33,827 nt of DNA from positions 1 through 33,827 of IMG/VR virus record IMGVR_UViG_3300033388_007251; one strand, 5' to 3'. Positions 2,791-27,978 of this stretch are shown here, one piece after another. Origin of the DNA: a virus. The translations under genes were made by a program, and so were the position numbers. The notes under the pieces are model-generated. The model worked only from the letters and a program-made list of their open reading frames with translations, made no database searches and was not told where the DNA came from. Numbering within the stretch: position 1 is the stretch's first letter; each line of letters begins with the position of its first letter.

Positions 2791-2796
2791 TCTGAC

Positions 2797-9944: not shown

Positions 9945-9946
9945 TC

Positions 9947-12370
9947 ATGACACTGCGAGCACCATCCACGATTCCTGAAAGGCGCGTCTCCAGCGCCAAG
10001 ATTCTTGGCGACCGTTCGGGGATGTACATCACCCGAACGCAGGACCCGAGCACGGGCCCGGCAGCGTATGCGTTGGGGATCGCTCGAGTGACACGTGTGG
10101 ATTACGCGCAGCACAAGATCCAACTCCAGATCGTCCACGGCGAGAAAGACACGTACCAGTGGACAGCGATGCCTGCGGGTTGCCCCGGTGCCGGGGCCCG
10201 TCATTTCATTGGGTCGCTTCCGGAGCCGGGTGATGTCTGCGTCATCGGATGGACTTCTTCGGAGTCGAAAACTCCCATCATTTTGACGTACATGCCCATC
10301 GGGGCCGGGTCGGGTGACGAATGGACACCGGTGCAGTCGTTCCTGCCCACCGAGGTGGATATGAACCCCCAGACGCAGGCCCATTACGAAGGCATCTATG
10401 GCCGTTACCGGCACAAGATGCGGGCGATGAGGCCCGGCTGCATCTGCCTTTCCTCGAGCCAGGGCTCCGACATCATCATGGACGAGAGCGTCCTGATCAC
10501 CAACCGGCGCGCAACCGAAATCCGACTGCGTGATCAAGATCAGGCGATCGTTTTCCGGTCCCTCCAGCAGTTCCATGCCATGGGTGGTGCTCGGGTCTAC
10601 GCGGGCATGGTGCAGCGCGACGCCCAACTCTTGCCGAGTCGTATGTTTAGCGATGGCACCAACTGGACCGCTGGTGTTCAGGTGGATGACAACGGCGATC
10701 CGCTGACCCCAGCGGATTTGGGTGCTTCGCCGCTTCCCCAAGGTTCTTTGTCGCCGCACAGAGTGTTTTTGCGTTCCGATGCCACGAGACCCTTTGCTGC
10801 CAGCGGAATTTCCATCGACACCAACATAGACCCGTATTCGTTTTTGGGTCGGGGTCTTTTCATTGGAACCGACGGTTACATTTTGGACGCGTCTCGTGGG
10901 ATTCCAGATGCCGAGTATGGCGGCAAACCCATCTACCGTGTGGCCATCGATCCGAGCCCGGAGAACAACACGGTCCCGACCAACGGCGCGCTATCGTCGG
11001 GTGGCTCCGACGCGGACACCCTTACCGAGTACCGCATCGAACTCGATCACTCTTGGGACGGCACTCTTCCTGTCACCGAACAGACAGACGGTTTTGATGC
11101 TGACCGTCTCCCCACAAACTCAAAGCAGGTGACGGCGATGTCCAACGCCGGTCCTTACATTCAATTTGTGCTGGGTTCCGTGGTCGGGAACGATGCGTTC
11201 ACCCGTCGAGGGCGTGAGCTTTACGGTCTCCCTCTGGCCCCTCAGATCTTCGCAGCGGACCGCATTGAACCGCAGATGGGCTCTGGCATCGGCCTCCCCC
11301 TCGGGCAGCACGCGGCCTCTCTGTTCCGTGTCGATGCTCCGATCGATGACCCCTCCTCCGTCCCCCCGATGTTCATTTCGACCACGAAAGACGGCAGCGT
11401 GAAAGGGTTCTTGAGTGGGTCACAGGATGCCAACTCCCTTGAGCTTGCGCTCAACGGTGGCATGCGGATGCAGGCGAACGGCCCTTTGATGTTCAACGCC
11501 TCGAACATGGTGATGAACTTTCAGAACGGGGACATCACGAACAACATCGCGGCTCTCATCGCTTCCGACACGGGCGCTATCGTGATTCGCGCGAACGCCC
11601 CCACGACGCAAGGTAGCTTTTCGGCACGACTCGCGAGTTCGGACCTCCAGGAGAACACTTTCCCGGCCGTTCTCATCGAGAGCCCGACTGGCAACACCCA
11701 CATCAAATCTGGCCGTTTCACGAAAATCACCGGAGCCAACGGTATTCAGTTCGTCGATACGAACGAGATCCTGATGTCTGCGAAGCAGAACATCAACGTG
11801 TTCACCGACAAGAAGTTGCTCCAGTGCAACACGCACGACAAGACGGTGCAGGGTCGAGAGACCAACTTGTACTCGGGGCCGTTGAATTTCCTTCCCACGA
11901 ATGCACCACTTCGTGAAACCAAGTTCATCGGAACCCCGTTGACCGGACACGTCGGCGGAGACACGGACAAATACGTGATGTTGTTCGGCAACCGTGACGA
12001 ACGGTTCCGGATTGGCAGTCACAAAACGACGTGCTTCGTCGGGAACATCACGTACCAGACCCGCATCGGAACCGTGACGCAGCGTGCCGGCATTAACACG
12101 ATCGCGGTCGATACCGTGACGGGGATTCGGATGACCTCCGTGACGAGCACGACGATGACCTCCACGCTGACGACGACCATCGCGGCACTCGCCTCGATCA
12201 CCATGAAGGCGGCCATCCGCGCCAAGCTGTCGAGTTTGGTGACGACCTTGGGTGGTGCTGGAACCCCAGGCCGCATCATCAGCAGTACAGACCGCGATCC
12301 CCTCACCAACCTCCCTTTCGCCTTCTTCGGCATGGGCAGCACTGGGCACCGGCTCGGTCTCCCGATCTAG
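9947..12370 (+). CDS. Baseplate central spike protein with OB-fold (gp5/gpV-like)
   Basis: 807 residues from ATG 9947. Residues 41-118 have the feel of a spike OB-fold: YALGIARVTRVDYAQHKIQLQI, then LPEPGDVCVIGW, then SKTPIILTYMPIG. In gp5/gpV/VgrG proteins this N-terminal domain sits on the hub trimer. The central region (about 120-480) is long and unassigned. The C-terminal third becomes beta-rich, with NINVFTDKKLLQ, YVMLFGNRDERFRIG, and a Thr/Val/Ile-rich stretch near residues 705-770 with an approximately seven-residue rhythm, compatible with a trimeric beta-helical needle. It ends GMGSTGHRLGLPI. It directly follows the hub gene, as expected for hub-spike partners. There is no lysozyme motif here; the hydrolase is on the hub instead. 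Fold assignment is by motif and context, not by search. Confidence 0.75.
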   Translation: MTLRAPSTIPERRVSSAKILGDRSGMYITRTQDPSTGPAAYALGIARVTRVDYAQHKIQLQIVHGEKDTYQWTAMPAGCPGAGARHFIGSLPEPGDVCVIGWTSSESKTPIILTYMPIGAGSGDEWTPVQSFLPTEVDMNPQTQAHYEGIYGRYRHKMRAMRPGCICLSSSQGSDIIMDESVLITNRRATEIRLRDQDQAIVFRSLQQFHAMGGARVYAGMVQRDAQLLPSRMFSDGTNWTAGVQVDDNGDPLTPADLGASPLPQGSLSPHRVFLRSDATRPFAASGISIDTNIDPYSFLGRGLFIGTDGYILDASRGIPDAEYGGKPIYRVAIDPSPENNTVPTNGALSSGGSDADTLTEYRIELDHSWDGTLPVTEQTDGFDADRLPTNSKQVTAMSNAGPYIQFVLGSVVGNDAFTRRGRELYGLPLAPQIFAADRIEPQMGSGIGLPLGQHAASLFRVDAPIDDPSSVPPMFISTTKDGSVKGFLSGSQDANSLELALNGGMRMQANGPLMFNASNMVMNFQNGDITNNIAALIASDTGAIVIRANAPTTQGSFSARLASSDLQENTFPAVLIESPTGNTHIKSGRFTKITGANGIQFVDTNEILMSAKQNINVFTDKKLLQCNTHDKTVQGRETNLYSGPLNFLPTNAPLRETKFIGTPLTGHVGGDTDKYVMLFGNRDERFRIGSHKTTCFVGNITYQTRIGTVTQRAGINTIAVDTVTGIRMTSVTSTTMTSTLTTTIAALASITMKAAIRAKLSSLVTTLGGAGTPGRIISSTDRDPLTNLPFAFFGMGSTGHRLGLPI

Positions 12371-12374
12371 CATT

Positions 12375-12959
12375 ATGGCACTCACCACCCCATCTTTGAG
12401 TGGAGCGATCATCTCCTTTGGGCAGGCCCGGTTTCCGGGCTCGCAAGTGATCCCGAAGATCGCGCCAGCGGTTGCCCGGTCCATCCTGGCGTGGGTGTCG
12501 GCGCCCGTGAATGTGACGATGCTGGGAGTCACTGCTGGCACCGCTGGGACAGGGAGCGTGAATGGCAAGCTCACTCTTTCGGGACCTCCCAACATCGTAT
12601 CCGCTGGCCTTCAACAAGCCGGGGTCACGGGCCCTTCATCTGCTGGCGTCGGAATGTCGGTTGGTGGGGGGGTTCTGTCTACGTTCAATTCGTCGGCTCA
12701 GTACACGGGAGCATCGATCGGAGTTGCAGCCGGTGGGGATACGTCAAAAGTCACCAATGCAAATCCCGCAGCGCTGATTCCTATTCTCCTCGCAAATTTA
12801 AGCGCACAAGCTGTTGCTGGCGTGAACAACACCCTTTTGGCGACCGGTCTCGCAACTGGGATCGCAAACCTTCTTCTTACCGGTGCTGGACTCGGTGGCG
12901 TGGTGGGAAGCCCTTCACCTACCGCGGCCGTCGGGACCAGTGTCTCGGTAGTATTTTGA
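12375..12959 (+). CDS. Small Gly/Ala/Ser-rich virion protein of unknown function
   Basis: 194 residues from ATG 12375, four bases after the spike stop. An in-frame ATG at 12252 would overlap the spike gene by 119 bases and give a low-complexity leader, so it is not chosen. No clear Shine-Dalgarno is visible. The protein is unusually poor in charged residues and rich in Gly, Ala, Ser, Val and Thr. It has repeated G-x-G patches (GVGMSVGGGV, TGAGLGGVVG) and a helical Ala/Leu section around 130-165 (ALIPILLANLSAQAVAGV). It could be a small baseplate or spike-associated structural protein. I do not recognise a family, and a PAAR-type spike tip is not supported because its motifs are absent. Confidence 0.65.
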   Translation: MALTTPSLSGAIISFGQARFPGSQVIPKIAPAVARSILAWVSAPVNVTMLGVTAGTAGTGSVNGKLTLSGPPNIVSAGLQQAGVTGPSSAGVGMSVGGGVLSTFNSSAQYTGASIGVAAGGDTSKVTNANPAALIPILLANLSAQAVAGVNNTLLATGLATGIANLLLTGAGLGGVVGSPSPTAAVGTSVSVVF

Positions 12960-12966
12960 TAAGCAC

Positions 12967-15900
12967 ATGGGCTTCGACTTTTCAGGATTCGTCCTTCGGG
13001 CGCCACGCACTGCTCCATCGAATGCTGTTACGACGGAGGAGGCATCCAATGGTGTCGATCGGGACTTCAAACCGCTCAGCACGGACTACACGATCACGTC
13101 GCCAGACCTTGTCGAGGTCTCCGCAGATCAGTATCGCGCTGCCGTCCTTCTCCGTCCCAATGACAGCCAGACCGAGTACCTGGTCTGGGCTGCCAACACC
13201 GCGAACCTGGCCGACATTGGTGGGTTCGAGGTCAGCGGGGAGGGAGATGCGACGTTCCCAACGGGGACGACGCCTGTAGCCAACACTAATCCTCCGACCG
13301 CTTTTTTCCTGACGACTGGATCTAACCGGGTCATCATCATCGATGACGCCAACCGAAGCATCGGAGACATCACGAGCCTCGTCGTCCGGCGTGGCGACAC
13401 CGGGGACGAGTTCCAACTTGTTGGGAACGGCGACTGGAACTCGGTCACCGGTATTTTCACGATCACCAATGACGCCCTCCTTGAGGCTCTTGGCGGAGGT
13501 GTTTCGAGCGTCCGTGGGGACCGCGCGACGGAGCTCAAGTATGTCCTGTCAGCCCCCACTTTCTGGTGGTCCAAAAACGACATCTACGGCAACCGGTTCA
13601 TCTGGGACGGAAAAGTGGATCGCTGGCGCCCCATTCGAGGGACTCCGCCACGCGATCTGGGCCAGCTCCTCGTTGACACCGAGTACACGCTCACTCCTGT
13701 CCCGCTAGTCACCGTAGGAGACTTCCTGCCGGGCGACAGCGATGTTCCAGACTCGTACTGCATGGTGCGCCTTGGAACGCGTCCTGACGCCTCCTCCATC
13801 CCTGTGGCGCCTCCCGTGGCGATCTCCGGGTTCAGTGGCATCAAGGTCGTCACGGACGAGGAGATCGAGGACTTCGATTTCGGGGTCGAGCCCGAACTCT
13901 CCGGCATCGTCAGCAGCGGCACAGGCACTTTGAAGTGGAACCCCACATTCGTGGAGGAGTTCGCCGGCCAGACCATTTTCTACTCCTACGACCAGTTCGT
14001 GGATCAGGAAGAGGTAGAGCCTCTCGGTGATCTCGAGGACGGCAATCTGAACCTGATGTTCGTTTCGCCGATCCCCGGGCCGACGGATTACCCGTTCATC
14101 CGCATCGGATCCCGCTCGGAGCTGATCGTGAAGTTTGCCGACACGGAAGCGGACCTGGCCCTCATCACGCCCGAAGAGGGTGAGGTCGGGGTCTCCCTGT
14201 CCACAGGTCGCCTCAAGTTTTCCGATGCCGATCTGGCCAAAGCGGATCCGGACGATCCGGGGTTCAACAACACGTACCTGGGCGCGCAGGTGTTTTACGA
14301 TGGCGTTTCTCTGACTCGTCGTCCGGTTCCTCTTCGTGATCCCATCCAACTGGTGAACAGCAGCGGCGACCCCACCGTTGTCGATGGGAAGAACCACCAG
14401 ATCTTCATCCCCGACGCGATCCCGACGCCGGGCCCCGGAACCTCTGGGGTGCTCCACATCCCCGACACCACGGGCACCATCCCGAACACGTCGGTTCCTG
14501 CGGGCATCCGTTTCGGAGAAGGCTCTGGGTTGATCCGCGCGTTCGAGGGTCCTTGGGACTTGGTGCTGTTCACAGAGGACGGTCAGATCAGGACCATCCG
14601 TGTTTTTGACGATGATGACGAGATACCGCGCTTCCGGTTTCGGATTCCTCGTGGTGTTGCCTACGTCGATAAGCGACTGGGTTCCGCTGGCAGCGAAGTC
14701 ATTCTGGGACGCCAGGATTTCAAGCGCTTCGACGGGAAGCCGATGTACTTCCTCCAGTCGGGCACGCAACCTTCGGTCTACTCCGAGGACGCGACCATGG
14801 TCGCTCGAGTGCGCAACGAGTGGACGCTCGTCGGCACCGAGGTGATGGTCTTTGCGGTTCACGGTACGGAGGTGACATGGAACGCGGCACTGGACCCTGG
14901 CGGGGTAGCCACCTCGGCTGGTGGGACTTTCACGGCCGACGAGATCGCCACGAGCCTGGGTGCCGTCGCACCTCTTGACAGCGAAGTAGTGGTTCAAAAC
15001 GGGCGTGTCATTTTGCGCTCGACCCGTTTGTCGGGGGACCTTCGATACGGTGAGATCGAAATCGGTTTCGGACCTGGAAACACGAAAGACCTGTCGGGAC
15101 CTGCGGCCCTTGGGTTCTTGCCGGGTTGGGTGATCCGGATCGCGGAGCCCAGTCTGGTAGACGCCCCTCCCGATCTCCGGTGGTTGCCGGACAACGGTTC
15201 CCACGTCGGGGTGTTCCGAAGCCCTTTCAATCGCAACGGCACCAAGGACAACATCGCGGACTCGAACCACATCGCTCGGTTCGAGAATGTAGTGTTCACG
15301 TCGAGTATTTCGGCGTCTCCGATTGTGGTCCTGGACCGTCCTCCTCTTGAGGACGTGGCCGGCTACGACGAAAACATCTTCTTCCAGATCCAGGACGGCC
15401 TGATTCAGTTCAACCTGGACAACTTCGAGGAGGTCTTCTACGAGTTCGGCCTCGGCAAGTTCTCATGGGCCGATGAGTTCCGTCAGGCCCAGACGGTCGA
15501 GCAGCCTACCAACACGCTCTACATGGGGCAGGCTCCGGTCATCCCCAACTCGTTCCGGCTTCCTGGCAACGGGCTACGCCTGTCGGTTCTGGGAGCGCCG
15601 TTCGAGGACCAGGTCCTCGACGAGGACTTCATCCTGGACGCGGACGGAGACTCCGGTCTCGTCATTCTCATCGAGACCGTAGGAGCCCTCAAACAACTTG
15701 GGGCTCGAGGAACCTTCACCTCTGGGACCACCACGTTCACGGACACGTCTCCTGACGTTGACTTCGTGGCTCTGGAGGTCCTCGCAGGGTGGCAGCTCAA
15801 GATCACCCAGGGGGACGCACAGGGCACCTACGTGGTGGCCGAAGACGCGACCGACACCAACTCCCTGATCGTGGAGCAGCAGTTCCCGGTGAGTGGCACG

Positions 15901-18900
15901 ACCATTCCTTGGGATCTCTATGAGGGCAAGACTCGTGAAGAGTTCGACCTGGGCGTTGTAGCCGATACCCAGTACGTCCAGTTCCAGCATTTGCCCGACG
16001 ACCCGTGGAAGGTTCGCGTCTTGTCGCCTTTGGGTGAGGTGCCTACGAGCGCCTCCGAACAAGAGGATAACCGCCTTGTCGCTGTTCTAGGCGACGCGCT
16101 GTCTTCGGGACGCCTCATCGTCATCCGATACGGACTTACCAGCGGGTCGCAAGAGGCCAACATGGTGGGTCTTACCCAAACGAACTTGGGGGTCATCCTC
16201 AACTCCGCACGAAACGTGCCGGACCCGACGGGTGATCGTTTCCTGGATGACGCATTTTCGATTCGCGTTGGCACCAAGACTTACACGTTTGATGACGGCA
16301 ATCTGATCAAGGTGGCTGGGGTTTTGTCGTTCCCTCTGGTCGGGGACGTGATCGAGGTCCAGACGGTCAGTGGGTTGCTCAACTTCGGCACCGAAGTGTT
16401 CGAGCAGTTCGATGGCCAGGATGCCATCTACGTCGAGGACTTCCTGTCCCCCATTTTGGTCGAGTCGTCCAATGTGGAGTACGACCCCGAGAACGGGCTG
16501 CTCAATTTCCCTTCCTCTGCCTTCACGGAGTTCGGAGGCACGGAGGTCTACCTCGTCGAGTCCATGAACACGCTCAACGGGGGCGTCGATGTGACGCTCA
16601 ACCCGATTCAGGGCTCGTTCCTTTTCACGAAGCCCCTTCGTGAATTCCAGGTTGTCGAGGTCAAGTACTTCCAAGCTGAAATCGGCACCGGCAACCTGTT
16701 GCTTGAGCCCATCGATCCCGAAGACCCCGAGAGCGGGCTCGCTCCCGTTGAGGTCATCGAGCAGCTTCCGTTGTTTGTACGTCTTGATACGGCCACATCG
16801 CTGGACCCCACTCCGTCAAAACGGTGGGAGTTCAACCCCACCCAGCGCACGGTGGATACCGACGAGGCGAACGAGCCGGCCTTCTACATCGGTTCGACGC
16901 TCTACAACATCGGCAGTTCGCCGATCGCTACTTTCGATATCGACAACGACAACGACGTGTACGTGGTGCACCTCGAAGAAGGCGTCGATGCTTTGAGCGA
17001 ATCCCTGATCACCTACGGGGTGTTCGAGGCATTCGGAGGCGAGCAGACCTACACGGTGAGTCAGCCTCCCGTGTACCGGCCACCGTTCCGGATCGAGGCA
17101 GACCAGACCAGCTTCGCGTTGGAGACGGATCGCACCGCCGAGGTGTCACCGGGCAAGCTCCTGCGTGTTGGGGAGTTCCCTTTCTACATCACGGCTTCGT
17201 CGTACAACGCGACGACGGATGTCACGACGGTCGAGTTCATTCCCGAGACGCAACTTGAGGCTGGATCCCGTGACCCGGGCTCGGATTCCTTGTCGCTGTT
17301 GTCCGACATCCCGCTGGCTACGGACATCGTGCCCGAAGCCCCGGATGGTTTCTGGCTCGAGATCACGAACCAGTACGAGCCGATCAACCGTGGGTTCCAG
17401 AACATCATTTTCGGAGGAGATGTTACGGCCGTCGCTGTTGCCGGCCACCTCCTTGAGCTCGGAGGGACTCCTTTCGTCATCAGCGGGTCTACGCAGATCG
17501 ATGACGGGACTCGGACTCAAGTGGATGTCACGAGTTTCTTCCCACGCGGGTACGCGTTTGGTCAGGACGCGGCCAAGATCAGTGTGCGTCCCGTCTACCA
17601 GCCGTTGCCTGAGCAGTTCATTGGCCGTGGCGGGGTGGTGGACACCGAGCCCAGTGAGTTGATCCTGTTCGGAGAGACGGATACGGATGGCAACCTGCTT
17701 CCTGGACGCACGCTCCGTCCGTCCATCGACTACATCCTCAACAACGACGATGGGTCCGTGGAGTTCCTCAATCCGCCGGAAGGTCCGTTGGAGCCGACGC
17801 AGAGTCTTTATCTTCGTCACACCCAGCAACGCATCATTGCGCCGCTTCTCGCAAACGGATTCATCCTGAACCCGAGGTTCGACGCACGGTTCGTCTACAT
17901 CCAGCCACCATCGGCGGAAGAAGACCCCATCACGGGTGCGGCTGGGAACGGTCGTCTCGGGAAGATTCTCCGGGGCACGTATACGTTCTCGAACCCGGAC
18001 ACGTTCTTCTACCGAACGGTCCCCCTTCTGAACTACCTGGGAGAGATGGCCGAGCAAGTGGCCCAGGAGATTGCGGCTCAGCTTCCTTCGCAGGGTCCGG
18101 CTCCCGCCATCATTCCTCCGACCGAGAACGCCACACAAGGACGCCTTGGCCTCAAGTCCCAGAGCCGGGACTTGGAGGACACGGATCGTGGGGCTCGAGC
18201 CTTCCTCGAGTTCTACAACGTCAACGTCATCAACTTCGAGCAGATCCTCGAAACGATCACCGGCAACATCATTGGTGACCGAGATGGCAAGTTCAAATTC
18301 TTCATCGGGAAGGGCAAGGATGTTGCGCCTCCCGGATACGAAGACGCCATCACCGGTGAGTTGAACCGGCGCAATCTCTTCTCCGAGGTGTTCTTCGGTT
18401 ACAACCCGAAGGCCACGTTCATGACGCGTGACCCGGTGGTGGACCCCACCGATTTCATCGTCGCGGGTGATCAACTCGAAGGTTCTTTCCTCGACCCCGA
18501 TTTCCTGGGGGATCTGCAGGGACTCCAGCGCCAGTTCGCCATGAACGAAGTGGACGACATCGTGTTGTTCGCTCGCACTCGCAAACGTCTGCGTCTGTTC
18601 CCGCTTCGTTTAGAGGCTTTCGGACGGTACCGGGTCTTGGGACAGCCCAGTCGGTTCTCTCGCGTCTTCCCGGAGCTCACTGAGTTTTTCACGTTGACCG
18701 ATCCCGGCATTGGGGCGGATTTGGAAGCGGAGCCCGTCAAGCGTGGGGTTTACTCTTTCAGCAAAAAGATCAAGCGTCTGTCCATCACGGGCGGCGGGGG
18801 TAACCTCAAGATTGAGCTGCCCAAGCGGGCCAGTACCTTTTTCAAGGGCATCGCTGATGTGGGCAATCCTGTACTTGGGACGGTCGAGAACATCGGGTCC

Positions 18901-21900
18901 CTTTCGGTTCAAAACCGTCTTCCCCGAGCCCGTATTTTCGCTTACAGCGAGGTCGGGTTCCCTGAGTTCGACGACCTCCTGGCCACCACGGACGGCTTCG
19001 GAGCGAACCCACGACCTGCGGTCATCGCTACTCCGCTTCCTCTGCACGAGCTACCGCTCGATGAGGAGGGGCTTCCCGATGTTACGCAGCTTGCGGCTCA
19101 GGGGGGTGAGACCATCGACCTGACGACTGGCGACCCTGTCCTGTTCACTCCCGCTTTCTCGGTGTGGACTGACCCCACGGGGAGCAATCTTCCGAAGGCC
19201 ACCTTCGGCCACCCCAATGGCACCGTCATCGACGTGGCTACGCCCGACTCTTTTTCGTACGAATTCGGTGGCGTTTCGTTCACGAGTCTCAAGTCCGTTT
19301 TTGTTGGCGAGATCCTCCTTGGTTGCATCCTCACGTTTGTTGATGAAGACGGTGTTCAACTCAACCCTGGCGAGATCCTCGAAGTTGGGGAGGAGGAAGG
19401 GACTACGGATGGGCCTGTCGAGCTCGATCGGGGAGACACCGTTTTCATCTCTCCCCCAAATACGTTTTTAACGGCCCCTGCCGATGTGGATGACCCTCTA
19501 ACCAACAGTGAGGCCAGTGCCTTGGCTAAGGGCAACCCCAACTACCGGGTGGGTTTCGATATCGGCGTGGACCGTTCTGATGGTGAACTCCGGGACATCA
19601 CGTTTCCTTCGTTGGCGGACCCGAATATCCCTCTCAAGGAAGCCTGGGGGCAGGGGCCTCCCAAGCCGCTCAGCAACGTCGAAGGATTCGTCACGTTCCG
19701 AAATGCGCTGACCGAGCCCGCACCCCTCCCGGCGTTGTTGGGTGGTTTTACGAACGACTCGGGCGACTACACGTTGCCGTACATCTACGCCGAGAACACT
19801 GAGATCGATCAGCTCGGCATCGTGGCCGGCGCTTTCAACGATCTTTTCGCGGACTCCGGAATTCCCAACGCGGTGTTCCCAGATGAGATCCAGGGAGTTG
19901 ACGGCGTCATCGTCGGCGTGCTGACTGGAACCGATCTACCGGCTGCGATCAACACAGGTCTCGATACGGAGCCGGTGACCACGGCTGGTGGCTACACACC
20001 GCACAGCGGCATCAAGGACGTGGAGCCGTTCGATGTGTTGCTCGTGGAGACCAACCAGACAGCTCTCGGGCTTCCCCCGGGATCCCAGGGCATCTTGTCC
20101 GTTGGCGGCACCAACGGGTCCGCCGCCGGGAGCACCCTTGAGCCGCCGCGGTTCGTGACCCCGACGGCGTTGGGCGACAACGTGGAGTACCTGTTCACGT
20201 CGGCGATGTCTTTCGTGAACCAGACGACGCTCCCGGAACCGCCGGGAATGATCGTGCGTCGAGTGGGCACCGTGACCCAGTTCGACATCACGCAGATCTC
20301 GACAGCGCTCCTGGTGTTCAACGATGGGACGCCAAGCGTTATCGCTGGTGGCCTCAACAACGTGTTCAACCTGGCCAGCACGAACATCATCACGATCAAC
20401 CTGTGGACTTCGTCCTCGGATGCCGTCCCGATTCCGGTGTTCCTCCAGGCGGTGACCATCGACTTCGGTACCGGTCTTGTGACGGGTGATGCGGCGGCTT
20501 CGGCCATCACTACGGTCACGTCGGACGACAACTTCATTTTCGTGGATACCCCGGCTGCGTTTGTGACGATTGGCCCCGGTGCTCCTCCTGTCCTTCCGGA
20601 AGACCCGTTGAATCCGGGAGATACGTTGCCGCTTTGGTTCACGATCGACATCAATGTCGGAGGTGCTACCGGTATCAGCACCACGGCTCAGATCGAGACC
20701 GACCGGCTCACGTTTGGTGAAGGCTACGACCTTCGTACGGTGCTTCCACGAGACGAGCCCCCGGTTGCGGCGGTGGCGGTGGCATCGGAGCTCAGCGTCA
20801 ATTTCGTCACCGGTAAGACCGTTTCGATTTGCACGGTCAATGACAACGTTTCGACCAATGGCGGCGTTCCGTACACCTTCCTGACACGTAACGAGTTTGC
20901 TCCGTTCATCGGCACCTTTGATCCGGCTCCTGGATCGGGTCGTGGGTCCATCAAAGTCATGGCCTTTGAAGGGCACGGGAACCTTCCCATCGTGACGACC
21001 GGTGACATCACCTTCTCGGCCCTTCCGTCTTCTCGGTATGGCACGGATCAAGTGATCGTCATCGCGGAAGGCGTGGGGTTGGCCGGCGTTGCAACGGAAC
21101 GCAACTTCCGAATCTCGACGGATGGCACCCCGTTGTTCACGGTGGTCGGTCAAGGGTTCGAGGCTGTTGAGGCCGGAGACATTTTGACGATCACTGGTAC
21201 GGACGATGTCCCCGCCAGGGCCGCGACCACGGCAGGCACCTATCTGGTGCGTCATGCCATCTCGCCCACCGAAGCGACAGACCAAGAGCGTCTGGCGACC
21301 ATGAATACGGCGACTCTCCCGGTGAATACAGAGTCCGGGTGGGCAAGTCCGATTTTCCCGACGTTGGTCAGCGTGGACGTGGATGGTTTTGGTTCTCTTA
21401 CCGTTTCGAGCACTCTTCTCAATGACGGGGTGACCGCGGCTTGGGATGGCACTGGGTTCTTGTACATCATGAATGTCCTGGACTCCGCGGCTTCCGACTA
21501 CGGTACGGCCAACTTCAAGATCCCGTACACGGCGGTCGATACCGTGACGAACACCTTCACGGTCTCGGCTGTAGGTGCGACAGACTTCTTGGGCACTTCG
21601 ATTACTGTGGCGGACATCGATGCGATCGAACCGGGCACCGTCATCTCGGGGTTCTTCCGGTTTGACGTGACTCTGGACCGCGCTCCTTTCGGAGCCCCGC
21701 CCCCCGATGTCGGCGTTCCTGAGAAACTGTTCCCGCGGAACACCGTGGGTTCTTTGGTGCCGATTGGGGCTGATGTTCCGATTGGAGGGTTTGCAGGCAT
21801 CGTGGTTTCGGGTTCCGGTGGCCAAATCGGTTATGACATTGCGCTGGCAAACCTCGTACCGGGCGCTCCGATCATCAATGAGCTCGCTGTCGCGGTGGCC

Positions 21901-23928
21901 ACCCCCATCGCCAACACTGCGTTTGACCCGAATCCGGATGCGTACGTCTACGACAACGTTCCGCATTACCTCCAAATTGACCAGACGGACGCGCCGGGCT
22001 CCGACTGGAACACCATCCACACGCTCCCAGATTTGTTCGCGTTGATGCCCGGGGATAGCTTGCGCACGCTCACGACTGCGTTTACGGAGGGTTTCCGGGC
22101 TCAAGCCGGCATTTTCCTTGAGCCTTCATGGGTACGTCCTACACTCGATCTGGGAGGGGCGACCGAACGTGTGGTCGATGCTGGGCACTCGGTCGCGGTT
22201 GGTGAAATTGGGTACCGAGACCCTGGTGCTTTTGGCGAAGCCGATCCCGAAGCCGTGTCCTGGTCCGTCCGTAGGATTCGTCGTTTCCATGACGTGCTCC
22301 AGGGCATTGGAGAACTCCTCGGGCCTCTTCGATACGTCTACCAAATCCGCCGTGGGACGGTGACGACCTTCGGGTCCGCGCCGGTGAGTACGGAGTCCTT
22401 CGTCTACCCGTTCGTGATCACGGCCGACGACGCCACCAACCTGGGTCCGTTCAACGACGAGTTCGTGAATATCTTCCCCGGTGACCTGTTCCGCCTGTTC
22501 GATACCGACGGGGTCACATTGCTCGATGAGGTCGAGATTGGTGGCATCGAGTCGGCGACGCAGATCTGGCTCAAAGAGCCTGGCATCACGAAGGTCCCTG
22601 CGGCCGATGTGGCTGGCAAGCCATTCGAGATCTACTTGCAGCAAGTTCCGGTGCCTCACGAGCAGAGCAACGCACAGCTTTTCGGGCAGATCACCGATCA
22701 GGTTGTGCTCGAACGGACCGCTGACTACACGACCCAGGAGGGTGGGTTCGTTCCCACCGAGCCGGAGGTGACAGATCCCCGGCGGCTCAGGGATAGCGAC
22801 GGAACCCTCAACTTTGCGGCCATTGGGGTCGCAGTCGGGGACATCGTCGTCATCGATGCGGCGGGAGATGTGGAGGGCCCCACAGGTGTCCCTGTGACGG
22901 GCCAGGAGAGCGGCCTTCGACCCTTTGGGGACCGAAGTGTCCCCAACCGTTTGACGGCTGAGGCGGGCCAGGAGGTGCCTTTCATTGCAGGTGCCCCATC
23001 CGAACTGGACGACAACCGGGGCTGGTACCGGGTCACGGAAGTGACTGGGGATGCCGTCACGGTGTCCAGCGAGACCGAGTACAGCAACGACCCCGGAGGA
23101 GGCTTTGTGACGTTCGGTGTGGAGGCCGAGTACGCCGTGCTTCCTACCATCTCGGGATCGACGGCAGCCTTTGCGGACCCTCCTGGTGGCCCTGGAGAGG
23201 AGGGGCAGTTGGACCTGCGCCCGACAGCCCTGGCAGGTGAGCTCGGGTCTGGCGCGGACTCCTTCCGCGGCAATCTGTTCAGCATCGCTCCCTTCTCCTA
23301 CAAGATCATTCGGCCGAGCGGTCTGTTCTCGTCCGAGGCCATCGACCTGGTGCTCCTGATGCGAGAGCGCACCCTGAGTTTCCTTGAAGAGTTCGACGTG
23401 TTCTTCCGTGAGGACAAATTCGGAAGCTACTTCGTCTTCCAGCGCGATGAGCATGTGGCAGATCTCGGTAACCCGTTGATTCCCGACGAAGGTAAGGGAG
23501 TCATGAGCAACGAACTCATCGACGGGGCTCGAGGTCTCGTAAGCATCAGCCCGTACGCGAACAACTCGGATTCGCTTGGGGTCTTGGATCGTCGGTTCTG
23601 GGTCAACGACTCGCGCCTGGACAACGAGTTCCCGGTGGATTCTCTGGCAGGTGTCCCCAGCTACGCGACACTCGAAAGCAACGTCAACAACCCGACGGCC
23701 GACGTGGGGGATGGGCGCCCAGTTTTGACGGACCGCATCGACGAGGTGTTGGACGACAACGACCAGTTCCGTGAACTTCGGTTCGCGTGGCTCGATTTCC
23801 GGGTCAACCAGGAAGACGGGACGTTGGTCGAAATCCGTCGTTTCATCAGCCAGCTTCCCAAGAAGCGGGCCAAGGAGCTTCGTGCTCTTCGGCAATCCCA
23901 GTCCTTCACCGATGCGGGTATCTCATGA
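12967..23928 (+). CDS. Giant 3653-residue virion protein, mosaic of beta-rich repeats
   Basis: Starts at ATG 12967 (MGFDFSGF), 7 bases after the previous stop, without an evident Shine-Dalgarno. It is almost entirely beta-type sequence, acidic, Gly/Pro/Thr-rich, with only three cysteines that I could find. Residues ~300-1620 carry a degenerate repeat G-x-L-x-F...F-x-G-x-x-[IV]-Y (for example near 312, 402, 567, 1131, 1170). Residues 655-720 form a module also found in the gp25-fusion protein. A second repeat type, GD-x-L-x-I ... G-x-Y-x-V, occurs near 915, 2721, 3153 and 3278. Residues ~1768-1790 contain IIGDRDGKFKFFIGKGK. The C-terminal 250 residues are more helical, with LLMRERTLSFLEEF and a basic end. 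No catalytic motif or signal peptide is seen. It is probably a large fibre, arm or collar of the baseplate; function is inferred from context only. Confidence 0.85.
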   Translation: MGFDFSGFVLRAPRTAPSNAVTTEEASNGVDRDFKPLSTDYTITSPDLVEVSADQYRAAVLLRPNDSQTEYLVWAANTANLADIGGFEVSGEGDATFPTGTTPVANTNPPTAFFLTTGSNRVIIIDDANRSIGDITSLVVRRGDTGDEFQLVGNGDWNSVTGIFTITNDALLEALGGGVSSVRGDRATELKYVLSAPTFWWSKNDIYGNRFIWDGKVDRWRPIRGTPPRDLGQLLVDTEYTLTPVPLVTVGDFLPGDSDVPDSYCMVRLGTRPDASSIPVAPPVAISGFSGIKVVTDEEIEDFDFGVEPELSGIVSSGTGTLKWNPTFVEEFAGQTIFYSYDQFVDQEEVEPLGDLEDGNLNLMFVSPIPGPTDYPFIRIGSRSELIVKFADTEADLALITPEEGEVGVSLSTGRLKFSDADLAKADPDDPGFNNTYLGAQVFYDGVSLTRRPVPLRDPIQLVNSSGDPTVVDGKNHQIFIPDAIPTPGPGTSGVLHIPDTTGTIPNTSVPAGIRFGEGSGLIRAFEGPWDLVLFTEDGQIRTIRVFDDDDEIPRFRFRIPRGVAYVDKRLGSAGSEVILGRQDFKRFDGKPMYFLQSGTQPSVYSEDATMVARVRNEWTLVGTEVMVFAVHGTEVTWNAALDPGGVATSAGGTFTADEIATSLGAVAPLDSEVVVQNGRVILRSTRLSGDLRYGEIEIGFGPGNTKDLSGPAALGFLPGWVIRIAEPSLVDAPPDLRWLPDNGSHVGVFRSPFNRNGTKDNIADSNHIARFENVVFTSSISASPIVVLDRPPLEDVAGYDENIFFQIQDGLIQFNLDNFEEVFYEFGLGKFSWADEFRQAQTVEQPTNTLYMGQAPVIPNSFRLPGNGLRLSVLGAPFEDQVLDEDFILDADGDSGLVILIETVGALKQLGARGTFTSGTTTFTDTSPDVDFVALEVLAGWQLKITQGDAQGTYVVAEDATDTNSLIVEQQFPVSGTTIPWDLYEGKTREEFDLGVVADTQYVQFQHLPDDPWKVRVLSPLGEVPTSASEQEDNRLVAVLGDALSSGRLIVIRYGLTSGSQEANMVGLTQTNLGVILNSARNVPDPTGDRFLDDAFSIRVGTKTYTFDDGNLIKVAGVLSFPLVGDVIEVQTVSGLLNFGTEVFEQFDGQDAIYVEDFLSPILVESSNVEYDPENGLLNFPSSAFTEFGGTEVYLVESMNTLNGGVDVTLNPIQGSFLFTKPLREFQVVEVKYFQAEIGTGNLLLEPIDPEDPESGLAPVEVIEQLPLFVRLDTATSLDPTPSKRWEFNPTQRTVDTDEANEPAFYIGSTLYNIGSSPIATFDIDNDNDVYVVHLEEGVDALSESLITYGVFEAFGGEQTYTVSQPPVYRPPFRIEADQTSFALETDRTAEVSPGKLLRVGEFPFYITASSYNATTDVTTVEFIPETQLEAGSRDPGSDSLSLLSDIPLATDIVPEAPDGFWLEITNQYEPINRGFQNIIFGGDVTAVAVAGHLLELGGTPFVISGSTQIDDGTRTQVDVTSFFPRGYAFGQDAAKISVRPVYQPLPEQFIGRGGVVDTEPSELILFGETDTDGNLLPGRTLRPSIDYILNNDDGSVEFLNPPEGPLEPTQSLYLRHTQQRIIAPLLANGFILNPRFDARFVYIQPPSAEEDPITGAAGNGRLGKILRGTYTFSNPDTFFYRTVPLLNYLGEMAEQVAQEIAAQLPSQGPAPAIIPPTENATQGRLGLKSQSRDLEDTDRGARAFLEFYNVNVINFEQILETITGNIIGDRDGKFKFFIGKGKDVAPPGYEDAITGELNRRNLFSEVFFGYNPKATFMTRDPVVDPTDFIVAGDQLEGSFLDPDFLGDLQGLQRQFAMNEVDDIVLFARTRKRLRLFPLRLEAFGRYRVLGQPSRFSRVFPELTEFFTLTDPGIGADLEAEPVKRGVYSFSKKIKRLSITGGGGNLKIELPKRASTFFKGIADVGNPVLGTVENIGSLSVQNRLPRARIFAYSEVGFPEFDDLLATTDGFGANPRPAVIATPLPLHELPLDEEGLPDVTQLAAQGGETIDLTTGDPVLFTPAFSVWTDPTGSNLPKATFGHPNGTVIDVATPDSFSYEFGGVSFTSLKSVFVGEILLGCILTFVDEDGVQLNPGEILEVGEEEGTTDGPVELDRGDTVFISPPNTFLTAPADVDDPLTNSEASALAKGNPNYRVGFDIGVDRSDGELRDITFPSLADPNIPLKEAWGQGPPKPLSNVEGFVTFRNALTEPAPLPALLGGFTNDSGDYTLPYIYAENTEIDQLGIVAGAFNDLFADSGIPNAVFPDEIQGVDGVIVGVLTGTDLPAAINTGLDTEPVTTAGGYTPHSGIKDVEPFDVLLVETNQTALGLPPGSQGILSVGGTNGSAAGSTLEPPRFVTPTALGDNVEYLFTSAMSFVNQTTLPEPPGMIVRRVGTVTQFDITQISTALLVFNDGTPSVIAGGLNNVFNLASTNIITINLWTSSSDAVPIPVFLQAVTIDFGTGLVTGDAAASAITTVTSDDNFIFVDTPAAFVTIGPGAPPVLPEDPLNPGDTLPLWFTIDINVGGATGISTTAQIETDRLTFGEGYDLRTVLPRDEPPVAAVAVASELSVNFVTGKTVSICTVNDNVSTNGGVPYTFLTRNEFAPFIGTFDPAPGSGRGSIKVMAFEGHGNLPIVTTGDITFSALPSSRYGTDQVIVIAEGVGLAGVATERNFRISTDGTPLFTVVGQGFEAVEAGDILTITGTDDVPARAATTAGTYLVRHAISPTEATDQERLATMNTATLPVNTESGWASPIFPTLVSVDVDGFGSLTVSSTLLNDGVTAAWDGTGFLYIMNVLDSAASDYGTANFKIPYTAVDTVTNTFTVSAVGATDFLGTSITVADIDAIEPGTVISGFFRFDVTLDRAPFGAPPPDVGVPEKLFPRNTVGSLVPIGADVPIGGFAGIVVSGSGGQIGYDIALANLVPGAPIINELAVAVATPIANTAFDPNPDAYVYDNVPHYLQIDQTDAPGSDWNTIHTLPDLFALMPGDSLRTLTTAFTEGFRAQAGIFLEPSWVRPTLDLGGATERVVDAGHSVAVGEIGYRDPGAFGEADPEAVSWSVRRIRRFHDVLQGIGELLGPLRYVYQIRRGTVTTFGSAPVSTESFVYPFVITADDATNLGPFNDEFVNIFPGDLFRLFDTDGVTLLDEVEIGGIESATQIWLKEPGITKVPAADVAGKPFEIYLQQVPVPHEQSNAQLFGQITDQVVLERTADYTTQEGGFVPTEPEVTDPRRLRDSDGTLNFAAIGVAVGDIVVIDAAGDVEGPTGVPVTGQESGLRPFGDRSVPNRLTAEAGQEVPFIAGAPSELDDNRGWYRVTEVTGDAVTVSSETEYSNDPGGGFVTFGVEAEYAVLPTISGSTAAFADPPGGPGEEGQLDLRPTALAGELGSGADSFRGNLFSIAPFSYKIIRPSGLFSSEAIDLVLLMRERTLSFLEEFDVFFREDKFGSYFVFQRDEHVADLGNPLIPDEGKGVMSNELIDGARGLVSISPYANNSDSLGVLDRRFWVNDSRLDNEFPVDSLAGVPSYATLESNVNNPTADVGDGRPVLTDRIDEVLDDNDQFRELRFAWLDFRVNQEDGTLVEIRRFISQLPKKRAKELRALRQSQSFTDAGIS

Positions 23929-24281
23929 CCCAACGCAAATCAAAGCCGCACTACGGTTTCCGTACGGGACCTGCACCGGGCCCTGACGGTTACGATGAGA
24001 AGAAGCGGTACCGGTCACCGTTCGACTTTGATCTGTCCAAGATGACGGTCGAGGAGGCCGAAGCGAAACTCCGTGAGATGGGTATCGAGCCCAACTCCTG
24101 GACGGACAACGAAGGCCAAGTGAAGGAGGGGGATACAGCGCAGATCCCTACGTTCAAGTTTTACGCGGAGATGCTCGGGGAGATCCGGGACATCTGCAAA
24201 GGCCAGGTCAGTCGTGACCTTCGTGAGATCGACGAACTTGGCGTCAAGATGCGTCGCCTCAAGAAGGGAGGGGGCGGGTAA
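23925..24281 (+). CDS. Small basic protein between two giant-module genes
   Basis: 118 residues from ATG 23925, which overlaps the previous stop as ATGA. A longer in-frame start at 23787 lies inside the giant gene and is unlikely. The N-terminus is basic and Pro/Gly-rich (MTQRKSKPHYGFRTGP), with SPFDFDLSKMTVEEAEAKLREMG giving a strand and an amphipathic helix in the middle. A second long helix near 70-112 (FYAEMLGEIRDICKG...LREIDELGVKMRRLKKG) ends in a Lys/Gly tail. It could be a small chaperone or linker for the giant protein before it or the helix-capped protein after it. No family recognised. Confidence 0.7.
   Translation: MTQRKSKPHYGFRTGPAPGPDGYDEKKRYRSPFDFDLSKMTVEEAEAKLREMGIEPNSWTDNEGQVKEGDTAQIPTFKFYAEMLGEIRDICKGQVSRDLREIDELGVKMRRLKKGGGG
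24264..24271 (+). promoter_or_regulatory. Strong ribosome binding site
   Basis: AAGGGAGG lies nine bases before ATG 24281. It sits in the Lys/Gly tail codons of the preceding gene, whose stop overlaps the start as TAATG, so reinitiation is likely. Confidence 0.6.
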
Positions 24282-26983
24282 TGCCTAATCCAGAACAAGG
24301 ACCAGAGAGCCAGGGGATAGTCGGGCAATGGCAGACGATCTCTTTGGAGATCCCGGACTTCCTCGAGCCGGTTCGCGAGGCGATCGATGCCTTCTTCTCG
24401 TTCCTGATCCAGATCCTCAACATCCTGTTGGCGGTGTTGGAGATCCTCAAGGTTTTCGCTACCGGGTTGCTCGACCCGCTCATCGCACTCATCACGCTGA
24501 TCCAGAGCATTATCGAGGCGCTGCTAGCTGACCTGAGACAGCTCGGTATTTACATCCACGGGGACATCTATAATCTGGAAGGGCCCGATTTCTCGGCCCT
24601 CAAGGGTGGCTACCTGACCTACCAAGGTCGGATGGTGGGGCGTCTCCAAGACTCCCAGGATCCGAACCGTCCGGACATCAGCGAGTTCTCGACATGTTTG
24701 GCTGTGTTCCTGTTCGTACAGACGGACATTCGTGGCATCAACCGCATCGTCCAGCTCGTCCAGTCCATCCTCGGGCTGTTCAACCGCCAGTATCCGTTGC
24801 CCCGGATGCAGAACAAGGCGGTGAGCATCGAAGCCACATACGGCTACGACGGCGCTACTATTTTCTCGTTCAACAAGAGCTTTTTCCGAGACGAGCTTTT
24901 CGACAAAGAGAGCCCCGACGACAGCCTCAACAACCCGTACAACGCGGTGAACCTGACGTGGCAGATGGCGACCATTCCCGGGTCTCCTTTCCCTGACACG
25001 CCGGTCATCCCACCGGCCGGGTTCCTGGTCGAGTTCTCGACGCGTGAGCAGCCCATCAAGCTCGTGGCCGAGCGTGTGATCCAAGGGTCCGCGCAGGATA
25101 TGGAGCTCCTGAATCAGCCGGCCAAGACCGAGGTGATTGAACTTCTCGATCAGGACCGGCAGCCGATCCTCCTTCGTGGTGGCAGTCAGCAGCTCGACAT
25201 CCAGGGAAGGATCAACTGGAACGACGCGGTCGATTCCCGTGGGGATTTCAAGTCCGATGCGGTGCGTGTGTACGGTGTCCGGAACATCAACGATCCGGCG
25301 CCCATTGACCTCAGCCTGCTTGAAGGCGACGGCAAGCATTTCATCCAGAAGACCTTCTTCGTTCCCTTTACCCAGAATTTGTTTTTCCCTGGTAAGGGGT
25401 ACGGTGCCTCCTTCAAGTTCGAGGACATGCCGTTCGCTGCGGACTTCGAGTTCTCAACGTTCCCGAGGGGCCGTATCCGACGCCTCAACGACAGCAAACA
25501 GCCTGAGCGTTACTTCGTTCGGGTTCGTGCGGTCAACCAGCCTGTAGCGGAGATCTCTGATGGAGAGACCATCGGCTACAAGTACGTCCTCGATCAGACG
25601 GCGTTGCGTCCGTCGCCCAACGGTCCAATCGTCACCATCGATCCTGGGCCTTTCTCTGATGTCCCGGTCAGTTTCAACGACGCAGGGCCTCCTTCGGACT
25701 TGGTGCCCATCCTATTCCCGGATGCCAGTACGCAGCTCTATCTGCGTGCGGTGGGAGAAGCCTTGGCCATCATGGCGTTGTCGCGGGCGGACATCCCGTT
25801 GTTGCTCGGCAAGAATGGCATTGTGGATTTCCCCCCGAATGGTCCCAATGACGTTCTCAAGGACGGGGAGCAGAACCCTTGGTGGGAGACGTACCAGGAC
25901 CGCTCCAGGAAGAGTACTCAGCTCGAAGACATCGCCAAGTTCATGCTGATCCGCATCGTCGGGCGTCGGCAGACCAAGAAGTTCTTTGAGAAAACCGGAG
26001 CCGACCCCGCCAAGTTCCGCAAGAGTCTCTTCGTCAACTGCATCAACTACACGAACCGTCTGTTGTCGCAGAACTTGCCCCCATTGGCAGCGCGTCAGCT
26101 TGCGGTCGAGCGTGCCGAGGACCTTCTCAACTTCCAGATCATTTTTGGAGACGAGAGCTACTTCACTTCGGTCGATCCCAACATCACGCAGCTTTTCGAG
26201 ACACTTCCTGGAGGCTCTGTCTTGGAGCTTCTCCAAGATACGAGCACTCAAATGGGAATCGCCCCCAACCCGTTGTCCCTGGGGATCGCGGACGGTCGAG
26301 CTGCCGAACGCATTCGGGCAGAAATCAACCAGGAGAGCAAGTTGGCACGAGAGCCGCACTTCTTCTTTGCGTCTCCGTCGGATCCTCTCATCACGGCAGG
26401 GCGTGGTTCCTACGACATGGCCCCCGTCGTCTACAACCGCACCAACAACCGGCTCAGGAAGATCGACTTTTTCCGTAACCTCATCCCCGACAGCGTCTAC
26501 GAGGGCGCGGCGTTTGTTCTCCAGGTGGCGGCCGGTCCGGCCGTACGCTCTCAAGAGCGTGGGTGGATTGCTTTCCGGGTATTCCCTCAAGGCATTCCGG
26601 CCATCGACCGTTTCTTCGATCAGATCCTCGCGCTTCTGCGTTCGATCCAGGCGGCGATCGAGAGCATTGCCGAGACCATCCGCCGCTACATCGAGTTCCT
26701 CCAGAGTCGTATTCGGGAGCTTCAAGCGTTCCTCAACCGTATCAACGCCCTCATCCAACGACTGCTTCGGTTCTTTTTCTCGATCACCCCGGCAGCCGGT
26801 TTGATCGTCGTCGCTCCCGGCACCGATGGTGTCACGGCCGCGTTGTTGGGCTCGCAGAACAAGCCGATCGGTCCTGAGAATCCTCAGTCGGATTCCTACG
26901 GCGGTGGCATCGTGCTGTTTGCTGGTGGCATCCCCAACCTGGCGATCGACGTGTTCCGATCGCTTTTCCAAGGAGACACCTGA
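24281..26983 (+). CDS. 900-residue structural protein with hydrophobic helices near both ends
   Basis: Residues ~36-92 are an almost continuous run of hydrophobic and amphipathic helix (FFSFLIQILNILLAVLEIL, then LLDPLIALITLIQSIIEALL) ending in DLRQLGIYIHGD. Near the C-terminus, residues ~773-837 again form long amphipathic helices rich in Ile, Leu and Arg (RFFDQILALLRSIQAAIESI, RELQAFLNRINALIQRLLRF). They are followed by a short Gly/Ala-rich end. Between them is a beta-rich body, including an FN3-like strand pattern near 409 (RYFVRVRAVNQP), and a helical part near 520-640. The helical ends may pack together or form a bundle in an oligomer; membrane contact is possible but unproven. Overlaps the previous gene by one base and the next by one base (TGATG). 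Probably a virion protein; no family is named. Confidence 0.75.
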   Translation: MPNPEQGPESQGIVGQWQTISLEIPDFLEPVREAIDAFFSFLIQILNILLAVLEILKVFATGLLDPLIALITLIQSIIEALLADLRQLGIYIHGDIYNLEGPDFSALKGGYLTYQGRMVGRLQDSQDPNRPDISEFSTCLAVFLFVQTDIRGINRIVQLVQSILGLFNRQYPLPRMQNKAVSIEATYGYDGATIFSFNKSFFRDELFDKESPDDSLNNPYNAVNLTWQMATIPGSPFPDTPVIPPAGFLVEFSTREQPIKLVAERVIQGSAQDMELLNQPAKTEVIELLDQDRQPILLRGGSQQLDIQGRINWNDAVDSRGDFKSDAVRVYGVRNINDPAPIDLSLLEGDGKHFIQKTFFVPFTQNLFFPGKGYGASFKFEDMPFAADFEFSTFPRGRIRRLNDSKQPERYFVRVRAVNQPVAEISDGETIGYKYVLDQTALRPSPNGPIVTIDPGPFSDVPVSFNDAGPPSDLVPILFPDASTQLYLRAVGEALAIMALSRADIPLLLGKNGIVDFPPNGPNDVLKDGEQNPWWETYQDRSRKSTQLEDIAKFMLIRIVGRRQTKKFFEKTGADPAKFRKSLFVNCINYTNRLLSQNLPPLAARQLAVERAEDLLNFQIIFGDESYFTSVDPNITQLFETLPGGSVLELLQDTSTQMGIAPNPLSLGIADGRAAERIRAEINQESKLAREPHFFFASPSDPLITAGRGSYDMAPVVYNRTNNRLRKIDFFRNLIPDSVYEGAAFVLQVAAGPAVRSQERGWIAFRVFPQGIPAIDRFFDQILALLRSIQAAIESIAETIRRYIEFLQSRIRELQAFLNRINALIQRLLRFFFSITPAAGLIVVAPGTDGVTAALLGSQNKPIGPENPQSDSYGGGIVLFAGGIPNLAIDVFRSLFQGDT
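26970..26976 (+). promoter_or_regulatory. Strong ribosome binding site
   Basis: AAGGAGA lies six bases before ATG 26983, at the end of the previous gene. Together with the TGATG overlap it supports this start and coupled translation. Confidence 0.65.
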
Positions 26984-27978
26984 TGTTTAACTTTCTGGGG
27001 ACCATGAGGCAGTGTCAGTGGAAATCATTCCGTGACTGGACGTTGAACGAGCGTCGAGCGGTGCCTCGTCGTGTGGGGGTGATCAACGCGGAGCTCGACC
27101 GGATCGGTTGCATCACGGTTTTCTACAAGACACGCGGACAGACGGTCCAAACTCTGGGTGGAGCGGAGCAGGAAGTTGAAACCGTGACGGAGGAGCGCAC
27201 TCGGTTTGTGGTTTCGCCCGAGTCTTCGCTCGAGAAGCTCGTGCAGGCGTACATCGCCCAAGGTGGCAACCCGATGGCGATCTCATTGTGGCTGCAACCG
27301 GACAATGTGCAGTTCACGACCGACGAGGACCCCCAAGAGGATGCTGCCGACGATCCCAACGAGCGTGCGACCTCGGCGGGACTCGCGTCCACACCTTTTG
27401 ACCAGCCTTACGGCGCCGTGATTTCGTCGGAGAGCACGACCTCGTATGGCGTGGGCGGCCAGTACATGGGTGGCGTTTCGGTGAAACTCACGGATCTCAC
27501 TCGTATGGCCGGCCGCTATGTGGAGGAGGGCGATGCCGGGGCCAAGATCGCGATCAAGATGGACTGGGCACGTCGGTGGGTCCGACAGGAAATCGCTGAG
27601 GTGACGCAGCTCGGAGAGAAGATCCTGAAACTCATGGATTTGCGCGAGCAGCTCATGCAGGAGCGCGACATCCTGATCCAGCAAAGCGTCGGAGGATCGA
27701 CCTTCCTGGGGCTGTTTCCGCCGAATCCTTCTCGGTTTGCACGAAACCTCCATCTCACGGAGATCGTCACCGAGATGGATTCAGTTTTTTACGAAACCGA
27801 TGAGAACGGAGAACCCGATTTCACACGTATCAACCTGGGCAAGCGAGCCGACGGAACGTCCCTTTCGGACCCTACGGACGACATCGAAGGTGAAAATGCT
27901 CAGGTGATCCCGAGCGGCATCGCTTTTTACGACACGCTCAATGCAGATCCCCCGGGAACCGACCCGTTTGCTGCCTGA
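26983..27978 (+). CDS. 331-residue virion protein of unknown function
   Basis: The start is supported by AAGGAGA six bases upstream. The N-terminus is basic and aromatic (FRDWTLNERRAVPRRVGV). It is followed by a beta-rich part (GCITVFYKTRGQTVQTLGG), a segment around 75-105 (FVVSPESSLEKLVQAYIAQG), and an acidic linker (TDEDPQEDAADDPNE). A helical stretch near 185-235 contains a likely coiled coil (GEKILKLMDLREQLMQERD). The C-terminal 60 residues are acidic and Gly/Pro-rich, probably flexible. No enzymatic or transmembrane motif. It is the last gene of the block inserted between the spike and gp25 homologues, so I infer a baseplate-associated structural role. No family recognised. Confidence 0.7.
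   Translation: MFNFLGTMRQCQWKSFRDWTLNERRAVPRRVGVINAELDRIGCITVFYKTRGQTVQTLGGAEQEVETVTEERTRFVVSPESSLEKLVQAYIAQGGNPMAISLWLQPDNVQFTTDEDPQEDAADDPNERATSAGLASTPFDQPYGAVISSESTTSYGVGGQYMGGVSVKLTDLTRMAGRYVEEGDAGAKIAIKMDWARRWVRQEIAEVTQLGEKILKLMDLREQLMQERDILIQQSVGGSTFLGLFPPNPSRFARNLHLTEIVTEMDSVFYETDENGEPDFTRINLGKRADGTSLSDPTDDIEGENAQVIPSGIAFYDTLNADPPGTDPFAA

Follow-up and report, generated by a model that had tools for sequence, protein, structure and literature searches.

The protein G gene and its neighbours in the window

The stretch of DNA analysed here (the window, 33,827 bp and itself a complete IMG/VR record) encodes on its plus strand a giant protein, called protein G throughout, at 12967..23928; the letters B to M denote genes of the window, and L followed by a number denotes a related locus. 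The frame opens with ATG at 12967, runs through 3653 codons without interruption and closes with TGA at 23926-23928, specifying a protein of 3653 aa, 393 kDa and pI 4.2. Coordinates, strand and length in an earlier note on this DNA were exact, and its remark on very few cysteines is borne out by the composition count (3 of 3653 residues). At the base composition of the window, the chance of a single frame staying open over this length is about 10^-50. Moreover, a second IMG/VR record (70,155 bp) is 99.986% identical to window positions 4320-33827, with 4 mismatches and 0 gaps. An unnoticed frameshift splitting the frame, a concern of the earlier note, was not found in the window copy. Since the open length is beyond chance and the protein is conserved at full length in other contigs, the reading frame is real. 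A search of the DNA of the gene for internal repeats found none, and a profile self-comparison built on 27 of 54 sequences gave a sole clear internal resemblance, between residues 315-424 and 1131-1187 (57 columns, probability 91%), all remaining pairs staying below 50% probability.

The neighbouring genes likewise lie on the plus strand. Upstream, gene D (4251..9944, 1897 aa) has matches in 55 of 86 sources, its best BLAST piece being limited to the N-terminal half in some relatives. It is followed by E (9941..12370, 809 aa, 60/86 sources), labelled here as spike-like, of which residues 49-116 weakly match the Phage_base_V OB domain (Pfam 16.2 bits, under the cut-off of 23.8), and by F (12375..12959, 194 aa, pI 10.45, 53/86 sources), which appears Gly/Ala/Ser-rich by eye and has no Pfam match. 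Downstream, the start of H (23925..24281, 118 aa) overlaps the stop of the protein G gene by 4 bases, and matches to H were found in 34 of the 86 sources when ORFs of at least 60 aa were scanned. Next come I (24281..26983, 900 aa, 73/86 sources), with hydrophobic helix-like stretches seen by eye close to both termini, and J (26983..27978, 331 aa, 61/86 sources). K (28009..29184, 391 aa), labelled here as gp25-like, weakly matches baseplate and wedge families of PHROGs (E 4e-4 to 9e-3) and resembles gp187 of Bacillus phage G. L (29195..32740, 1181 aa) is a Baseplate_J (wedge) protein with 63.8 bits to Pfam PF04865 against a cut-off of 21.1. M begins at 32733, and complete-looking frames of about 430 to more than 2000 aa carry this label among relatives. 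In this neighbour-gene scan unlabelled long ORFs came out as G, such as the 2893-aa tape measure of Bacillus phage G, and two giants cut by contig ends (loci L051 and L055) carry the label M.

Relatives repeatedly show the arrangement D E F G (H) I J K L M. Of the 81 related loci, 67 extend at least 3 kb upstream of the protein G gene, and in 56 of these E ends no more than 1.5 kb before it. Sixty loci extend at least 9 kb downstream; among them, I starts no more than 1.5 kb after the protein G gene in 57, and L lies within 9 kb downstream in 48. The neighbour is missing at these distances in 11/67 loci for E, 3/60 for I and 12/60 for L, part of which is due to L not having been called as an ORF in some loci. 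The protein G gene is thus encoded among baseplate genes, as the E, K and L neighbourhood also indicates in the window, and the baseplate association suggested in the earlier note is supported at the level of gene neighbourhood, with exceptions such as LR745208. Locus L060 encodes a 3554-aa relative with no other labelled baseplate gene within its flanks of 10 kb upstream and 6 kb downstream.

A scan that started from the Baseplate_J (wedge) gene, with 80 stretches kept of 127 confirmed, gave 35 loci with protein G in the flank, 36 with too little upstream sequence and 9 counted as without it. One of these nine, locus L102, has just 0.6 kb upstream; three lie in contigs that had already yielded protein G (those of loci L019, L024 and L016) and two have it elsewhere, whereas no protein G was found on searching the contigs of the remaining four, which measure 39-96 kb. 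All ten contigs longer than 200 kb among the 80 kept stretches carry protein G; in nine it lies in the flank, in the tenth at another place on the contig. Two of the ten are of equal length (402,383 bp) and are possible duplicates.

In Bacillus phage G, the genes B, K, L and M have counterparts in conserved order, gp184, gp187, gp188 and gp189, and its gp185 marginally matches D; the stretch examined gave no match to E, F, H or I. No relative of the middle part of protein G (residues 860-2055) was found in Bacillus phage G, over its whole genome, or in Tunturi_5. The uncultured phage LR745208.1 (485 kb, no annotation) encodes a full-length relative of 3642 aa with 34% identity; there the genes of protein G and I are still neighbours, but a distance of about 23 kb separates them from L, which is encoded on the other strand. 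This record was the only one among 50,697 phage records to match protein G, three different pieces or members having been used as queries.

Members of the protein G family and searches of named families

Scans of viral and genome contigs yielded 81 related loci, in which protein G is present at full length in a single frame in 61, ended by the contig edge in 19 and split in one. Because one of the viral-contig scans confirmed 153 stretches and kept the best 80 of them, the full family exceeds the loci counted here, which are biased towards complete and closer copies. Together with the window there are 62 full-length sequences, with ORFs of 3450-4164 aa (median 3652.5) when counted from the first start codon, which includes upstream extensions in some. 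They reduce to 54 at 95% identity, and their pairwise identity averages 39% with a minimum of 28%. The only split copy, at locus L022, is 99.971% identical to the intact copy of locus L021 apart from one gap between them, and its split is likely an assembly error. A further full-length relative, at locus L028 (CALEMP010000172.1, 74,473 bp), lies in a contig deposited as part of a bacterial MAG, which is perhaps a binned phage contig.

Searches of named families with the window protein gave nothing in PHROGs at E 0.01, in Pfam at E 0.1 or in NCBIfam at E 0.05, and no curated cut-off of Pfam or NCBIfam was reached; thus, no known enzyme family, which the earlier note had considered as an alternative outcome, was found in these three collections. 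Pfam was additionally scanned member by member with N- and C-terminal pieces, and any one family matched at most 2 of 39 N-terminal and 1 of 35 C-terminal pieces, none over its cut-off. With the first 1190 residues as query, a sub-threshold match to Mtd_N was seen at residues 392-419 (E 0.0059, 17 bits against a cut-off of 26.3), and it recurs in 2 of the 39 N-terminal pieces. A PDB sequence search with the protein G profiles returned nothing at E 1 with alignment A1 or at E 5 with alignment A4, and the best PDB profile matches of the middle (E 0.17), C-terminal (E 0.5) and N-terminal pieces (E 0.56) were taken as chance. Judged by these comparisons of sequences and models, protein G belongs to a family, met under no name in these collections, of very large, predicted mostly beta-stranded proteins that very large bacterial viruses encode among their tail-baseplate genes.

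Tape measure proteins are mainly alpha-helical and are encoded ahead of hub genes. A tape measure identity is improbable for protein G, the modelled parts of which are beta-rich and the gene of which sits after E; the contig of locus L003 has a separate 1093-aa ORF at the tape-measure position, assigned from position only.

Predicted structure and sequence conservation

AlphaFold2 single-chain models were built from alignments of 54 sequences for residues 860-2055 (15544..19131, plus strand; mean pLDDT 81.6, pTM 0.57) and 2460-3653 (mean pLDDT 86.0, pTM 0.78), that is, for 2390 of 3653 residues (65%). Strands account for 35% and helices for 12% of the former model, and for 27% and 15%, respectively, of the latter. 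Residues 860 to about 1655 are predicted as small beta domains, helices follow at 1687-1705 and 1729-1765, and a largely helical C-terminal module occupies residues 3456-3649 (23332..23913, plus strand). The earlier note had described the protein as beta-rich throughout and without tape-measure-like helices. Beta-rich is true of most of the modelled residues, but 'throughout' and a lack of long helices are only partly right, given the two helical stretches and much of the C-terminal module. The strings of small beta domains that in the note's view would support an arm or collar were obtained in the modelled parts, with one domain clearly and two weakly like tail or baseplate domains.

A beta-barrel at residues 1460-1540 (17344..17586, plus strand) gave in VIA a Z of 10.6 to K1 capsule lyase (7w1d, 74 aa, 1.9 A), 9.0 to the Mystique tail tube (9n71), 8.6 to the JBD30 baseplate (8rk3) and 7.3 to T5 Dit (4jmq), and it also resembles the unrelated V-ATPase, plasmin and MPXV polymerase at Z 5-6. 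Residues 1268-1354 reach Z 5-6 against parts of the baseplates of P1, phi812 and Klebsiella phage, and residues 3120-3233 (22324..22665, plus strand) form a barrel like EF-Tu domain 2 and like a lambda tail tip barrel at Z 6-7, values that a merely common arrangement could also give. The VIA listings are dominated by these few barrels and say little about the remaining parts. Since the matched domains measure about 70-85 residues and unrelated proteins such as EF-Tu, ATP synthases and proteases match the same small folds, the barrel matches show no function. Likewise, T5 Dit pb9, the JBD30 baseplate, and the Chi and lambda tail tips each align to single protein G barrels (Z about 6-9, 68-83 residues), yet they share with protein G neither overall architecture nor a sequence family, protein G being several times longer.

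In Foldseek comparisons, the C-terminal model matched tail proteins of BFVD locally over 114-116 columns at a probability of 1.0, and its BFVD neighbours include virion structural proteins, tail proteins and tail fibres; the ten BFVD matches have TM of at most 0.11. The middle model matched one PDB chain at E 2.9e-5, yet with TM 0.06 and 34 A, and the C-terminal model matched no PDB chain at E 0.001. A global fold match was thus not found in PDB for either model or in BFVD for the C-terminal model, the query-normalised TM being at most 0.09 among the matches listed. As an observation apart, a profile of protein G around residues 914-986 gives weak additional matches, with E from 8e-5 to 2e-3, to different frames (1800-2125 aa) in the contigs of loci L146, L141, L145 and L137 (labelled G015, G016, G017 and G012, respectively); one barrel may be common to several large proteins of those contigs.

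Conservation of protein G spans its whole length, with a mean top-residue frequency of 0.49 in the family alignment, 0.50 over the first 200 residues and 0.55 over the last 200. The top 50-residue block is 1751-1800 (0.70), and residues 3451-3550 reach 0.62. A less conserved, indel-rich zone lies at residues about 2451-3050 (20317..22116, plus strand; mean 0.39 over 2401-3050), and in a tenth-by-tenth comparison the highest dN was found at residues 2556-2920. Compared with locus L003, dN is 0.20 and dS 1.76 (dN/dS about 0.11), and compared with locus L030, 0.25 and 1.37 (about 0.18), with dS close to or beyond saturation and infinite in one tenth; pN is far under pS in all ten full tenths in both comparisons. 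Protein G is under purifying selection.

In common relatives, protein G has a mean identity to the window of 43% as compared to 47% for L (r 0.97, n=36) and 40% for E (r 0.90, n=43). Identity also correlates with that of I (r 0.98, n=52), J (0.97, n=41), C (0.94, n=34), K (0.93, n=36), F (0.92, n=39) and D (0.90, n=38), so the correlation is not specific to L, and values of 0.90-0.98 are expected from joint vertical descent alone. The value for B (r -0.12) was disregarded because the B and C profiles took identical matches.

Possible roles of protein G in the tail baseplate

With somewhat better than even confidence, we read protein G as a core structural part of the tail baseplate in a huge-phage lineage, a scaffold, arm or collar, and not as a receptor-binding tip. 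The baseplate reading is based on the neighbours, namely L with Baseplate_J over the cut-off, K with its weak baseplate matches and the recurrence of E, I and L near the gene, as well as on the barrel that resembles tail and baseplate barrels at Z 8.6-10.6 and on the virion structural and tail proteins among the BFVD neighbours. That it would be a core part is suggested by a conservation about equal to that of the wedge protein L, and not a faster evolution as in a host-range tip. Following this, we propose for protein G an acidic polypeptide of great length in which small beta domains are strung together, one helical module lying mid-chain and a second at the C-terminus. Its conserved parts would attach to other baseplate proteins, the candidates being E, F, H, I and L, whereas the variable zone of residues about 2451-3050 would point outward. 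As a scaffold, arm or collar it might widen or brace a large baseplate, and an arm or collar form, as proposed in the earlier note, is compatible with the data. More tentatively, and with considerable doubt, a single chain of about 3650 residues may take the place of several peripheral baseplate proteins that smaller phages make separately; if so, a larger particle would be served by chain growth instead of additional gene products.

Tail fibre and receptor-binding proteins have a conserved N-terminal anchor and a variable C-terminal tip. Protein G might bind the host surface as a tail fibre of great length or as an arm resembling a fibre, perhaps via the zone around 2451-3050, a reading to which the chain of beta domains, the tail fibres among the BFVD matches of the C-terminal model, the internal indel-rich and faster-evolving zone and the sub-threshold Mtd_N match would lend themselves. 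However, its conservation does not follow the fibre pattern, as the variable zone is internal and both ends are conserved, the last 200 residues even more than the first 200. Furthermore, its identity tracks that of the baseplate genes, and six large ORFs after the wedge gene in a 618-kb contig, none identified as a fibre, are candidates that could supply fibres, so that we regard a fibre role as rather unlikely. The possibility that protein G contains an enzyme, for instance a surface depolymerase, in a segment that lies outside the models or escaped recognition appears slight. A capsule lyase, tailspikes and GH110 enzymes are among the local structural matches, and 1263 residues (1-859 and 2056-2459) lie outside the models, but the matched parts are the small barrels described above, the whole protein matched no Pfam or NCBIfam family, and no single family was matched by more than 2 of the 39 N-terminal pieces or 1 of the 35 C-terminal ones.

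The N4 virion RNA polymerase invites comparison with protein G in length. That protein G is likewise packaged and ejected into the cell would accord with its great length in one frame and its very few cysteines, but the location of the gene among baseplate genes, the beta domains and the lack of any polymerase family match in PHROGs or Pfam make this the most improbable role considered here. Hardly more probable is an assembly factor missing from the finished particle, since for such a role the size and barrel content of protein G would be unusual, even though the presence of protein G in particles is itself presumptive. For the core baseplate part favoured here, we infer the presence of protein G in the particle, its partners, copy number and shape, and likewise contractile tails.

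Being large, conserved, present in all ten wedge-list contigs longer than 200 kb and without a match to any named family tested, the protein G family probably represents a component of huge-phage particles that has escaped study. If protein G frames the baseplate, it would help to explain the enlargement of these particles; moreover, its gene is a long marker gene for the lineage. Predicted proteins of up to 7,694 aa, some of them tentatively structural, have been reported in huge phages (Al-Shayeb et al. 2020, PMC7162821), and such giants are therefore already in print in general terms, whereas the passages concerned define neither the protein G family nor its neighbourhood or fold. A description of the family was not found in the mainly open literature searched, including parts of PMC7162821, PMC12619734, PMC13282480 and PMC7674155, and the family thus appears to be undescribed in these sources.

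With respect to other large proteins of these contigs, the six ORFs after the wedge gene in the 618-kb contig (loci L092 and L094) measure 748-1900 aa and have no Pfam match at E 0.05, one of them matching a PHROG of unknown function. The Phage_sheath_1 model matched none of eight related contigs and Phage_sheath_1C matched one of the eight, the 485-kb contig, with 18 bits against a cut-off of 26.9; the test is insensitive, since Bacillus phage G itself also falls under both cut-offs. By eye, proteins of 2488 aa at locus L090 (11792-19258, minus strand) and 1665 aa at locus L093 (4785-9782, plus strand) look sheath-like, usual sheath proteins being far shorter. The two are alike at both ends, and the 2488-aa protein has an additional repetitive-looking stretch of about 830 residues.
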